A stretch of 48,500 nucleotides of DNA from Kangiella sp. GTDB taxonomy: Bacteria > Pseudomonadota > Gammaproteobacteria > Enterobacterales > Kangiellaceae. Made by a program: the position numbers and the translations under genes. Under the pieces are notes generated by a model that was not told the DNA's origin, did no database searches, and saw only the letters and a list, made by a program, of their open reading frames with translations. This document shows positions 8,146 to 12,095 of the stretch, in pieces. The stretch is taken from the NCBI RefSeq assembly GCF_014762745.1, contig NZ_JABURJ010000120.1:1-48500 (forward strand). The letters are read 5' to 3'. Position 1 is the stretch's first letter. Each line of letters opens with the position of its first letter.

Positions 8146-8173
8146 TTGCAAAAGCAGGTTATTGGTTTATAAT
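8146..8173 (+). promoter_or_regulatory. Sigma-70 promoter of the tRNA-Leu transcription unit
   Basis: TTGCAA (8146-8151), 16-bp spacer, TATAAT (8168-8173), then a GCGCC discriminator typical of stringently controlled stable-RNA promoters. The predicted start near 8180 is about 280 bp upstream of the tRNA, so both 122-bp repeats would lie in the primary transcript. Confidence 0.7.
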
Positions 8174-8214
8174 GCGCCTCACTTTTGAGGTCTTGTCTCA
8201 ATAAAAAGTTTAAA

Positions 8215-8458
8215 GCCAGAGTGGTGAAATTGGTACGACGACCGATGGAGTCGGGAGTGCCCTCGGTGCACACGGGAGTAGCGCGAAGCGCTACAAAATG
8301 CTTTAGGTTAGCTCCTAAGCTACAATCAGGTTTAAAGCCAGAGTGGTGAAATTGGTATGACGACCGACGGAGTCGGGAGTGCCATCGGTGCACACGGGAG
8401 TAGCGCGAAGCGCTACAAAATGCTTTAGGTTAGCTCCTAAGCTACAATCAGGTTTAAA
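8215..8458 (+). repeat. Two tandem 122-bp units that start with the tRNA-Leu 5' end
   Basis: Units 8215-8336 and 8337-8458 differ at only three positions. Each starts with GCCAGAGTGGTGAAATTGGTA, as in the intact tRNA-Leu at 8459, then diverges into about 100 nt with no anticodon or T arm. Inside each unit are three stems: ACCGATGG-like against CCATCGGT-like (one mismatch per unit), GTAGCGC-GAA-GCGCTAC, and TTAGG-TTAGCT-CCTAA. TTTAAA precedes each copy and the tRNA. The units sit between the promoter and the tRNA, so they should be transcribed in the leader. Confidence 0.85.
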
Positions 8459-8545
8459 GCCAGAGTGGTGAAATTGGTAGACACACGGGATTCAAAATCC
8501 CGCGCCCTTAAAAGCGTGCCGGTTCGAGTCCGGCCTCTGGTACCA
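8459..8545 (+). tRNA. tRNA-Leu (anticodon CAA)
   Basis: 87 nt including an encoded CCA end. The acceptor stem GCCAGAG pairs with CTCTGGT (closing G-T wobble), the anticodon arm is CGGGA-TTCAAAA-TCCCG giving CAA, a long variable arm typical of leucine tRNAs follows, and the T arm is GCCGGTTCGAGTCCGGC. It decodes TTG. It is the only intact tRNA in the window and is followed after 4 bp by a terminator. Confidence 0.97.
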
Positions 8546-8549
8546 CATC

Positions 8550-8577
8550 AAAGCCCTTGTTTTCGCAAGGGCTTTTT
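8550..8577 (+). terminator. Intrinsic terminator after tRNA-Leu
   Basis: Stem AAAGCCCTTG / CAAGGGCTTT with loop TTTTCG, followed by a T-run. Bases 8549-8577 are identical to 12053-12081 after the M6 protease gene. Confidence 0.9.
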
Positions 8578-8724
8578 CTTTTCTGCAGCAATTTTCGCGC
8601 AAAATTCTCTAAAAGTAATACAACTGTATGCATTTGTATCCAATCTTCTGAGTTTGGTAAACCTGCTTGATGAATAAAGCTGGCTGGTTTTTAATAGATG
8701 GCTGTTTGTTTCGGTGGAATCCTA

Positions 8725-9020: not shown

Positions 9021-12000
9021 ATGAAACATACGACTATTTATAGTTTATTGGCTCTTGCGCTAACGACTCCTTTAGCCCAAGCAGCGGAGAAATCAATTAC
9101 ACCCAAAGACCCTGCTTTGGTTAATCAAGAAAGAATTTTGTACTGGCTTGAGAAGCGTGGCGAGATTAAGTCTGACTCCAGCGATATAGAAAAAGAACTA
9201 GCGGTTAAGCAGTATCTTGGTAACAGCTTGAATATACAGGCTAAAACACCAGCTTTGGTCTCTAGTAGCTTAAAGCAAAGACAGGCGTCCATACTCAAAG
9301 GGGTTGCCACTGAACAAAAAATTATTAACAACAAAACCGTTAAGGTGCTTGCTGTTCTAATTGATTTCCCAGATTTACCACATAATGACAATGGGTTGTC
9401 GTCAGGTGATACAGATATGTATTACAGTTCCTATCCAGCGTCGCATTATGATGGCTTAATGTTCTCGGAGACCGGTTTTACTGGTCCATCAGGCCAAACT
9501 CTTGAGTCTGGTTATAATTTTTACCAGGATGAGTCGGGCGGTACTTTCTTTTTTACCGGTAAATCTTATGGTTGGGTAACCGCTGATAATGATGCTGTTC
9601 ATTATGGTGAAAATGACGTTGATACAGAAAATGATAAAAATGTTCCTGCATTAGTTAAAGAAGCAGTTACCAAAGCCGTTCAGGAATATGGCATCAATCT
9701 TGCCGAGTATGATGTAGAAGATCCTTATGACTTAGATAATGATGGGAATATTGAAGAAGCCGATGGGCTTATTGACCATGTCATGATTTATCACTCAAGC
9801 GTTGGTGAAGAAGCTGGTGGTGGTGTATTGGGTGATGATGCTATCTGGTCACATCGATTCTATGTAGATGGTCAGCAGGGTGGCTACACTATTCCTGGAA
9901 CTAATAAAAAAGTATTTGGTTACACTATTCAACCAATTGATGCGGCGACAGGCGTTGTTGTCCATGAGTTTGGACATGATTTAGGTCTGCCAGACGAATA
10001 TGATATTGAGGGGTCTGAGGTAGGCTCTCCAGTAGGTATCTGGTCGGTTATGGCCTCGGGAAGCTGGGTCGGCAGTCCAGCTGGTACAAAACCAACAGGA
10101 TTTAGTCCTTACGCACGCTCCTTCCTGCAAAATACCTATGGTGGTGACTGGATCGACGAAACCGTGGTTGAGCTTTCTGATTTAGAGGATGCTTCACAAG
10201 ACATAGCCTTGGTGGAAGCTTCTAATCACTCTGGTAACGCTAATCAAATTCGAGTAAATATTCCGGCACCACTGGAAGACTTTACTGCACCTTATACCGG
10301 TTCCTACCAGTATTATTCTGGTAAGGGAGATATGAAGTCCAATAGCATGAGTTTTGATGTTGAGCTACCTGCAACAGGTACGCTTGAGCTTAGCATGAAA
10401 GCCCACTGGGATATTGAGGTAGATTGGGACTACCTTGTGGTTAAAGCTAACGATACAGTGTTAGCGGGTAATCACACGAAAGCAACTAATTCTCAGCACC
10501 CAAGTGTGGCTAACTTTATTACCGGAAAATCCCTTGATATAACTGGTGCAGAAGGTTCCGAGGGCTGGGTTGACCTGACCTTTGATGTGACTTCCTTTGC
10601 AGGTCAGACTGTAACCTTCAGTTTCAATTATGAAACGGATCAAGCAGTTGGTGGTTATGGTTTTGTAGCTGATGATATCGTAGTCAAGCAATCTGGCACA
10701 TCCGTTTATTTTGATGGGGCTGAGTCTGAAGGTACTGCTACTTTTGCTGGCTTCCACCGTGTAGCGAATCAGGCTCCAATGCTTCCACAGAATTATTGGA
10801 TTCAACTGCGTAGTGCTAATGGGCGTGATGCAGGTTTGGCTAACACCTTTAATACCCCGGGTGTTCTAGTGTGGTTTGGTAATGAAAATTATAGTGATAA
10901 CAAGGTTGGCGATACTGTAGAGGGGCATCCCGGCTATGGTTTTGTGGGTGTTGTTGATGCCGACCAAAATATTATTATGGATGGTTCAAGCATTGGTAGC
11001 ACTTTGAGCCAGATTCGAGACGCGGCATTCGGACTATATAATCAAAAAAGCTCAAGTGGCGATACTAATTTAGCTCCAATTTCTGTGTTTGATGACTCCA
11101 ATGACTATTCGTCACCTGAGCAACCAGCTTCGGGTCTTGTGCTACCTGAGCATGGTTTCAAAATGGAAGTGATTGAGCAGTCCACTAATTCAAGCACTGC
11201 AACTGTTAAGCTAAGTGCTGCACCTCTGGAGTTAACTGCGGGCTTTGATTTTCAGCGTAATTTCCGAGAAGTGACATTTTTTAATGACACTGCGGGTGGA
11301 ACACCGGGTTATACCTACGAGTGGAACTTTGGTGACGGCTCGGAGGTATCTACAGAAGAATCGCCAGTGCATAGTTATGCAGCTAGCGGAAGTTATACGG
11401 TGACTCTAACGGTTACTGACCAAGATGGTACCGTAAGTGAGTTTCAACAGCAGGTAATCATTGGGGATGTATTGTCAGTTGATTTTAACTCATCAGTAAG
11501 TGGTTCATCTGTTGAGCTTAGTGCAGTCATTGACGGTGGTGTTGAGTCTTACAATGTAGAATGGGACTTTGGTGATGATAACCAGGATACTGGCACTAAT
11601 GTTAGCCACTCATACGCTTTGACTGGTACTTACACTATTACTATGACTGTAACCAGTGGTGATAACCAGCAGGCTCAAGCAACAAGGGAAGTGAGCGTGG
11701 TTGCTCCATTGAATGTTAACTTTACATCTAGTCGCAATAATCTGACCGTTACATTCTCAAGTACTGCAACTGGTGGTGATGGAAGCTATACCTATAGTTG
11801 GGATTTTGGTGATGGCAATAGCAGTACAGCAAAGTCACCATCACACACTTACTCTACCGCTGGCTCTTATGACGTGACTTTCAAAGTGACCGATGGTTCA
11901 GGTGTTGAGCGTGAAATGACCCAGTCCGTTACTGTAAGCGAGCCTCCATCAAATGGTGGCAGCGGCGGTGGTAGCGCCAACTGGTTGTTGCTGATGTTAT

Positions 12001-12029
12001 TGGGTTTAGTTCTAATTAGAAGACGTTAA
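9021..12029 (+). CDS. M6 family (immune inhibitor A-like) metalloprotease with PKD repeats and GlyGly-CTERM
   Basis: 1002 residues. A signal peptide ends near residue 21 (PLAQA). The peptidase domain holds the zinc motif HEFGHDLGLPDEYD starting at H315, followed by WSVMASGSW. A beta-rich M6 C-terminal region follows (about 410-740). Three PKD domains lie at about 743-816, 818-893 and 895-973, each with a WNFGDG/WDFGDD/WDFGDG core. The tail is a glycine/serine spacer, a hydrophobic helix and an RRR end: a GlyGly-CTERM signal normally processed by rhombosortase before surface release by type II secretion (family knowledge). Likely a secreted degradative protease. Preceded by a lipoprotein gene and followed by a strong terminator. 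Confidence 0.92.
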   Translation: MKHTTIYSLLALALTTPLAQAAEKSITPKDPALVNQERILYWLEKRGEIKSDSSDIEKELAVKQYLGNSLNIQAKTPALVSSSLKQRQASILKGVATEQKIINNKTVKVLAVLIDFPDLPHNDNGLSSGDTDMYYSSYPASHYDGLMFSETGFTGPSGQTLESGYNFYQDESGGTFFFTGKSYGWVTADNDAVHYGENDVDTENDKNVPALVKEAVTKAVQEYGINLAEYDVEDPYDLDNDGNIEEADGLIDHVMIYHSSVGEEAGGGVLGDDAIWSHRFYVDGQQGGYTIPGTNKKVFGYTIQPIDAATGVVVHEFGHDLGLPDEYDIEGSEVGSPVGIWSVMASGSWVGSPAGTKPTGFSPYARSFLQNTYGGDWIDETVVELSDLEDASQDIALVEASNHSGNANQIRVNIPAPLEDFTAPYTGSYQYYSGKGDMKSNSMSFDVELPATGTLELSMKAHWDIEVDWDYLVVKANDTVLAGNHTKATNSQHPSVANFITGKSLDITGAEGSEGWVDLTFDVTSFAGQTVTFSFNYETDQAVGGYGFVADDIVVKQSGTSVYFDGAESEGTATFAGFHRVANQAPMLPQNYWIQLRSANGRDAGLANTFNTPGVLVWFGNENYSDNKVGDTVEGHPGYGFVGVVDADQNIIMDGSSIGSTLSQIRDAAFGLYNQKSSSGDTNLAPISVFDDSNDYSSPEQPASGLVLPEHGFKMEVIEQSTNSSTATVKLSAAPLELTAGFDFQRNFREVTFFNDTAGGTPGYTYEWNFGDGSEVSTEESPVHSYAASGSYTVTLTVTDQDGTVSEFQQQVIIGDVLSVDFNSSVSGSSVELSAVIDGGVESYNVEWDFGDDNQDTGTNVSHSYALTGTYTITMTVTSGDNQQAQATREVSVVAPLNVNFTSSRNNLTVTFSSTATGGDGSYTYSWDFGDGNSSTAKSPSHTYSTAGSYDVTFKVTDGSGVEREMTQSVTVSEPPSNGGSGGGSANWLLLMLLGLVLIRRR

Positions 12030-12053
12030 TCCAGTCAGCTAAAACCAAGATAC

Positions 12054-12081
12054 AAAGCCCTTGTTTTCGCAAGGGCTTTTT
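12054..12081 (+). terminator. Intrinsic terminator after M6 protease
   Basis: Stem AAAGCCCTTG / CAAGGGCTTT followed by eight or more T. It is an exact copy of the terminator at 8550-8577 in the same orientation. Confidence 0.9.
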
Positions 12082-12095
12082 TTTGCCCAAAATTT

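Follow-up and report, generated by a model that had tools for sequence, protein, structure and literature searches.

The window, a stretch of 48,500 nt from Kangiella sp. (assembly GCF_014762745.1, contig NZ_JABURJ010000120.1, positions 1 to 48,500), carries a tRNA-Leu(CAA) gene that is preceded by two direct repeats of 122 bp (8208-8329 and 8330-8451). The repeats are 98% identical and differ at three positions, 8236/8358, 8246/8368, and 8262/8384. A third repeat start of 28 nt (8452-8479) continues into the tRNA gene itself. The features of the locus are as follows:

8146-8173, + strand: promoter box TTGCAA-16-TATAAT, upstream of the units
8215-8336, + strand (repeat register 8208-8329): unit 1, with tRNA 5' copy, insert, resumed bases, hairpins, and tail
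8215-8235, + strand: copy of tRNA-Leu nt 1-21, unit 1
8242-8254, + strand: hairpin 1 of the insert, GGA loop, unit 1; pairing kept in nine Kangiella units
8257-8269, + strand: hairpin 2 of the insert, unit 1; shorter than in the dispersed element described below
8270-8277, + strand: ACACGGGA, resumed tRNA bases, unit 1
8278-8294, + strand: hairpin C of unit 1, GTAGCGC-GAA-GCGCTAC; double-sided changes at 5 of 7 pairs within the genus
8300-8320, + strand: putative fourth hairpin, tail of unit 1, read from the sequence alone; tail identity between species is mostly near the shuffled level
8337-8458, + strand: unit 2, with the same parts as unit 1 at an offset of 122 nt
8364-8376, 8379-8391, 8392-8399, and 8400-8416, + strand: hairpin 1, hairpin 2, resumed tRNA bases, and hairpin C of unit 2
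8459-8545, + strand: intact tRNA-Leu(CAA)
8550-8575, + strand: terminator-like hairpin followed by a T-rich stretch

Each unit thus combines approximately the first 24 nt of the tRNA with an insert of two hairpins, a short resumption of the tRNA sequence, and one further hairpin. Past nucleotide 21 of the tRNA copy, the window's units have one extra base and then GAC, while ACACGGGA represents the next eight tRNA bases, taken up again after the insert. A first-pass annotation of this DNA had described two near-identical units that open with the first 21 nt of the tRNA, fold into several stems, and lie between promoter and tRNA. All of this is real, and three to four hairpins were found per unit. 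Its statement that the tRNA-like part stops after nucleotide 21 has to be corrected, as GAC and ACACGGGA follow. The annotation had also read the two units as differing on both strands of one stem, a pairing that finds no support in the comparison across the genus. Under the genus-wide pairing the two units show no compensatory change relative to each other: 8246/8368 turns a C-G pair of hairpin 1 into U.G, 8262/8384 is a loop position of hairpin 2, and 8236/8358 adjoins the tRNA copy.

Promoter matches occur in the window at about chance number (1 found, 1.1 expected). Across the genus, a TTGCA(A/T)-N15..18-TATAAT box lies upstream at 19 of 20 congeneric loci, the exception being L006, which is located near a contig end. 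The folding energy of a single unit is unremarkable (z -1.03 to -1.45), neither unit reached an Rfam gathering score, and no tRNA was called inside them; no full cloverleaf, with its T arm and 3' acceptor strand, is recognized there. What exceeds chance in the repeats is the combination of exact, in-register tRNA copies with a structure supported by comparison. An assembly artefact is an unlikely source of the units, because they also occur in other species, including the one-contig genomes G003, G005, and G006; the exact copy number of two at the window locus is known from one assembly. Elsewhere in the window, positions 12053-12084 hold a 32-nt copy, 97% identical, of the tRNA-Leu terminator hairpin (query 8549-8580), directly after the reading frame 9021-12029.

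Among 20 Kangiella genomes, the unit is present at the tRNA-Leu(CAA) locus in eleven (L005-L009, L011, L014, L017, L019, L020, and L022), with a degraded tRNA copy in L020. A remnant, hairpins without the tRNA copy, is found in L021, and the remaining eight (L010, L012, L013, L015, L016, L018, L023, and L024) have none. K. taiwanensis (L036) is among the Kangiella with a unit. For a structural comparison, nine of 13 Kangiella units were aligned; L006a, L008, L017, and L022 were excluded due to extra inserts or poor alignment, and likewise L021, which has no tRNA copy. In this alignment, 98.0% of the cells of the three helices form standard pairs, and seven of 17 pairs have changed on both sides. 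None of 500 shuffled alignments reaches four of the five pair measures, five of 500 reach the fifth (further pair types), and controls in which the alignment was slid pair at only 20-45%. Wobble pairs are biased as well (15 G.U versus 2 A.C, mostly at two neighbouring pairs of helix 2), and this excess of G.U points tentatively to selection acting on the RNA. A conserved hairpin in the 5' leader is not part of the picture: an exact arm of at least 7 nt was found in only seven of the 19 Kangiella loci with a promoter match. L008 and L022, which belong to different clades, have in common an elongated insert, in which a similar additional block with further hairpins is placed between parts of the element.

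Sequence identity is distributed unevenly along the locus. For 21 pairs drawn from seven of the eleven unit-bearing species, identity amounts to 61-100% in the tRNA copy and 46-90% in the remaining core, while leaders (31-79%) and tails (48-88%) are nearer to the shuffled level in most pairs. Exceptions are L005-L007, which are alike throughout, and several leaders about ten points above shuffles. Between L011 and L014 on the one hand and L019 and L020 on the other, even the cores are identical only at the shuffled level. Carriers of the unit are spread across the three clades of an rpoB tree comprising 17 of the 20 genomes. The same scatter on this tree is seen for the anticodon-stem alleles of tRNA-Leu(CAA) in L005-L024, which suggests exchange of the locus between species. 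Taken together, the scatter of units and alleles suggests losses, exchange of the locus, or both. The leader of L013 equals that of its sister L011 as far as the first 5' copy and from there leads directly into the tRNA, an arrangement that a deletion between two 5' copies would leave.

The insert has relatives far beyond the genus. From ten insert copies in other genera, without any Kangiella sequence, we built a covariance model, R1, which describes a palindromic element of approximately 51 bp with two hairpins and GGA loops. In the underlying alignment 91.4% of the cells pair and eight of 14 pairs have changed on both sides; none of 500 shuffles reaches four of the measures, and 14 of 500 reach the fifth (further pair types). 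At E 0.01, R1 finds the element in at least 87 of 369 Gammaproteobacteria genomes. In this class-wide scan at most 16 candidates of each genome were scored, under stricter filters; eight genomes had at least 16 candidates. The genome searches were carried out with patterns and this one model, and all genome counts are therefore lower bounds.

Within Kangiella, R1 matches five of the 20 tRNA-Leu loci at E 5e-4 or better, with 59.3 bits for L008, 54.1 for L022, 42.7 for L006, 42.5 for L017, and 22.2 for L019. Thus, several Kangiella inserts are related to the element. R1 matches none of the window's units, nor those of L007, L009, L011, L014, and L020. The missed Kangiella units align with L019, one of the matched loci, and appear to be shortened descendants of the element; the units of the window, L009, L011, L014, L020, and Arenicella L045 are putative members by virtue of their alignment and layout. 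In the window's own genome the best R1 match scores 18.7 bits (E 0.17). The four best places there (L080-L083 on contigs C89, C125, C105, and C73) constitute another dispersed repeat, with several palindromes carrying a GGA loop, such as GAAGTACAGGATGTACTTC.

None of the best 30 class-wide R1 loci has a tRNA-Leu in its stretch of about 3 kb. One copy (L054, 1501-1551) is read in frame as DVPGRTSVAGGRMPGAT, 17 residues inside a 723-aa gene that NCBIfam assigns to primosomal protein N' (PriA). This copy appears to lack a duplicated flank, and duplication is thus not a general result of insertion. At L113 (1399-1604) and at L181 of G399 (452-609), the bare element is repeated head-to-tail at a spacing of approximately 52 bp, with no tRNA called nearby. 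At least two GGA motifs are present in 58 of 59 rows of dispersed copies versus 32 of 33 distinct tRNA-linked upstream rows. Some excess of wobble pairs occurs in the dispersed copies as well (40 G.U versus 24 A.C in 59 rows).

The composite of tRNA copy and insert recurs at tRNA-Leu genes of other families. An exact 18-mer spanning the junction between tRNA copy and insert was searched in the genome collection and found in 16 stretches, 15 of which lie directly upstream of an intact tRNA-Leu (eight CAG, two TAA, one GAG, and four CAA); the sixteenth, from Acinetobacter, has no tRNA nearby. Twelve of 144 genomes in the family to which Gilvimarinus algae (G396) belongs, presumably Cellvibrionaceae, carry the composite, which adjoins CAG, TAA, GAG, and CAA genes and thus recurs at tRNA-Leu genes of four anticodons. 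A longer, tRNA-joined pattern was found in one of 369 Gammaproteobacteria genomes, an Arenicella-like one. No tRNA 5' copy without an insert was found in the 144 genomes, as searched by exact letters at a start-to-start spacing of 65-95. Tandem arrangements occur in several genomes: three units of 137-139 bp in Arenicella (L045), whose insert is not recognized by R1, three units in G393 at 141-bp spacing, the first one truncated, three in G396 at 144-bp spacing over two contigs, and two each in G519 and G520.

In 13 genomes picked for carrying a unit, 35 of 53 element copies (E 1e-4) are located at tRNA-Leu ends and six of the 13 have two or three tRNA-Leu genes affected, figures that overstate the link because the genomes were chosen for the unit and the model was built on tRNA-linked copies. 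Three of the 35 copies lie at contig ends with the tRNA itself off the contig, and G518, one of the six, has its second case at a contig end; for the remaining 18 copies no tRNA-Leu was called in the stretch examined. In G389, G391, G394, and G401, the sole element copy found at E 0.01 adjoins a tRNA-Leu. A strong association of the element with tRNA-Leu is confined to some lineages.

All upstream units have one insertion site and one orientation, and 24 of 33 carry a tRNA copy without mismatch across 24 nt. The bases resumed after the insert match the unit's own tRNA over 5.6 nt on average, compared with 2.1 nt for other alleles and 2.4 nt for shuffles (33 units). On average, the units therefore track their own allele; taken singly, 17 of 33 fall below p 0.05, and L034 and L049 do not track theirs. 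As a set, the upstream copies show 12 G.U versus 9 A.C (33 rows), and a general argument from wobble counts for selection on the RNA strand was rejected. We also considered a complete pseudo-tRNA and rejected it: tested in each unit singly, the closing stem lacks significance (p 0.0135 to 1, with two of 27 units below 0.05), and the similarity of the tail to the tRNA 3' half has a median p of 0.53 over 33 units, the two below 0.05 both belonging to one array. GGTTAG-type loops and AATC(A/G)GG motifs in the tails are suggestive by eye only.

A mirror form exists at tRNA 3' ends. G520 and G530 have four and three units, respectively, approximately 131 bp apart and downstream of a tRNA-Leu(CAG). 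Each of these units consists of the last 12 nt of the tRNA and the element in opposite orientation, so that the same element end faces the tRNA fragment. The units lie behind a terminator-like hairpin that belongs to the unit itself, and the downstream arrays thus need no transcription. A third, similar array in G452 contains other GGA-loop hairpins and is not recognized by R1 (7.6 bits). In total, such arrays were found in three of 144 genomes of the Gilvimarinus family.

The explanation that we favor, at slightly better than even confidence, is that a palindromic element has settled in duplicated tRNA-Leu ends, where it is gained, multiplied, and lost by recombination, and in Kangiella is co-transcribed with the tRNA. 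A unit would then be a duplicated 5' end of tRNA-Leu that holds a relic of the element between tRNA nucleotides 24 and 25, namely two hairpins whose loops were ancestrally GGA; the resumed tRNA bases and a further hairpin would come next. Because a complete tRNA remains downstream, such an insertion would be harmless and could persist although the gene is essential. The units are bounded by direct repeats of the tRNA end and could therefore multiply or drop out without trace, and recombination via these repeats would also match the units to the local tRNA allele and exchange them between strains. The Kangiella unit would lie inside the tRNA-Leu transcript, and the 5' cut by RNase P would free a hairpin-rich leader RNA. 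In this account the unit is probably, for the most part, a tolerated passenger under structural constraint and not an essential regulator.

The first-pass annotation is partly supported, in that the units recur in Kangiella and their hairpins covary. Its suggestion of a structured RNA and its suggestion of recombination scars at the tRNA gene each fit part of the evidence. What it lacked is that the insert belongs to a dispersed palindromic family, that the composite occurs at tRNA-Leu genes of other families, and that there is a mirror form at 3' ends.

Several observations speak against the favored explanation. A mere scar would not explain the constant site, the constant orientation, and the exact 24-nt copy in 24 of 33 units; furthermore, R1 misses several units, the link to tRNA-Leu is limited to some lineages, the priA copy is unduplicated, and Kangiella shows its wobble excess. 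A rival reading, which we consider unlikely, is a functional leader RNA: after the RNase P cut a small RNA would remain whose GGA loops bind CsrA, such that transcription of tRNA-Leu yields a CsrA sponge. In units of several genera the loops read CAGGAUG, CAGGACG, and CAGGAAG, and L022 is one of the Kangiella with GGA loops. The CsrB repeat is CAGGA(U/A/C)G and the site selected by SELEX is a GGA in a hairpin loop (PMC7652899); the unit loops equal the former and resemble the latter. The genome has one csrA match (E 4e-26), a GGA is placed in the loop of hairpin 1 in the window and in most relatives and may be a candidate site for CsrA binding, and covariation and wobble excess in Kangiella would fit such an RNA. 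The presence of at least two GGA in nearly all tRNA-linked upstream rows was established with R1, a model that itself contains GGA. However, GGA is equally common in dispersed copies and is thus a trait of the element. In L011, L014, and Arenicella L045 the stems are kept while the loops of hairpins 1 and 2 appear to lack GGA, the downstream arrays sit behind terminators, eight of 20 Kangiella genomes do without the unit, and the upstream copies as a set show no wobble excess. Palindrome correction during replication can produce paired changes as well, and covariation alone is therefore no proof of RNA function.

It is quite improbable, in our estimation, that the units serve as folding decoys, in which the 5' copy in the leader pairs with the 3' strands of the tRNA and thereby delays or tunes folding and RNase P processing. 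On average the copy does follow the allele of its own tRNA, also in the anticodon-stem strand, and the predicted decoy acceptor pairing (mean pair probability) is 0.31-0.995 in seven of the eleven unit-bearing species, but it is predicted at 0.006 or less in L006, L009, L017, and L020, and an identical copy must compete in any such folding calculation. In the same calculation the correct acceptor stem reaches a probability of just 0.02-0.46 for six tRNAs even without a leader; as several tRNAs misfold even alone, it is weak evidence either way. In L034 the acceptor strand differs between the copy and its own tRNA, and mirror arrays behind terminators cannot act as decoys at all. A regulatory role as sponge or decoy is possible, although the absent wobble excess upstream, the arrays behind terminators, the GGA-less loops, and the unit-less Kangiella genomes argue against either as a general rule. 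We hold it similarly improbable that one old functional leader RNA moved among tRNA-Leu genes and that the dispersed palindromes are its escaped, SINE-like copies. Insertion site, orientation, and the third hairpin are common to several families, and the one copy found at E 0.01 in each of G389, G391, G394, and G401 is at a tRNA-Leu. On the other hand, many dispersed copies occur in lineages for which the loci examined include no tRNA-Leu copy, and stretches of leader that seem to be duplicated in L035 and L039 point to local duplications. Ordinary recombination scars or an assembly artefact, without further meaning, would account for direct repeats at a tRNA gene that are dispensable in eight of 20 relatives, and palindrome correction could mimic the compensatory changes. 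This explanation is very improbable and already largely contradicted by units in one-contig genomes, by their recurrence in other families, and by the covariation; exact tRNA copies beside diverged leaders and tails also speak against it.

Returning to the palindromic element in duplicated tRNA-Leu ends, similar units beside tRNA-Leu genes of other families suggest a small repetitive element that settles there and leaves an intact tRNA copy. A wider reading, which we put forward tentatively and with clearly less than even confidence, is that a short palindromic element has specialized on tRNA-Leu ends in several gammaproteobacterial lineages, residing at several tRNA-Leu genes and on either side of them in composites that keep the essential tRNA whole. 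In Kangiella it would have been kept as a structured, transcribed leader while its dispersed copies are no longer recognizable there, and rtT of E. coli would represent a further branch of this way of life.

Among known systems, palindromic elements inside genes, e.g., the Rickettsia palindromic element, are akin to the R1 element by kind: both are short palindromic repeats that can occur in frame within proteins. We know of no such in-gene element that forms a composite with duplicated tRNA ends. 3'ETS-leuZ is a by-product of a tRNA-Leu precursor with a possible role as a sponge; it differs from the units in being a 3' spacer instead of a 5' leader, and to our knowledge contains neither a tRNA copy nor tandem units. 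RNAs of the CsrB/RsmY type resemble the units in their repeated CAGGA(U/A/C)G-type hairpin loops, but a unit has just one or two of these, and they are lost in some species. The best Rfam match to this type is RsmY with 19.9 versus 57 bits at L113, which is not a tRNA-Leu locus. At all loci scanned with Rfam, tRNA alone was above the cut-offs; the best other match, cspA, is also at L113, below its cut-off and not at a tRNA-Leu. In the literature covered, largely that outside subscription, we found no publication on the sequence of the element or on the composite of tRNA end and palindrome.

The closest known arrangement is rtT (rttR) of E. coli tyrT/tyrV, in which the terminal fragment of the adjoining tRNA is repeated in tandem together with a hairpin-rich body. 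Copies of the final 18 nt of tRNA-Tyr lie behind tyrV of E. coli K-12 at +160, +338, and +516, with one more at -137; the tandem repeats are 178 nt apart, and their hairpin-rich body is annotated rttR. Release from tRNA transcripts is reported for RtT RNAs, which in Actinobacillus are said to lie upstream of tRNA-Asn and tRNA-Lys (PMC4986893). R1 scores at most 6.6 bits on the E. coli tyrT repeats, and Rfam RtT, which we take to be in the library, has no match at our loci at E 5, 1, or 3. In contrast to the Kangiella units, rtT is located at the 3', downstream end, belongs to tRNA-Tyr, and has another body. Along this line, the tyrT repeats are no longer the oddity of one operon, but an instance of a recurrent pattern in which tRNA ends are copied together with palindromic repeats, a pattern that spans tRNA-Leu genes of four anticodons, both sides of the gene, and several families. 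These loci provide natural replicates for the origin of such arrays, for the activity of released leader RNAs, and for the way in which a repeat settles in an RNA gene that is essential and yet leaves the host viable. The layout of rtT is found in the window at the 5' end of the tRNA, in G520 and G530 at its 3' end, and in E. coli.
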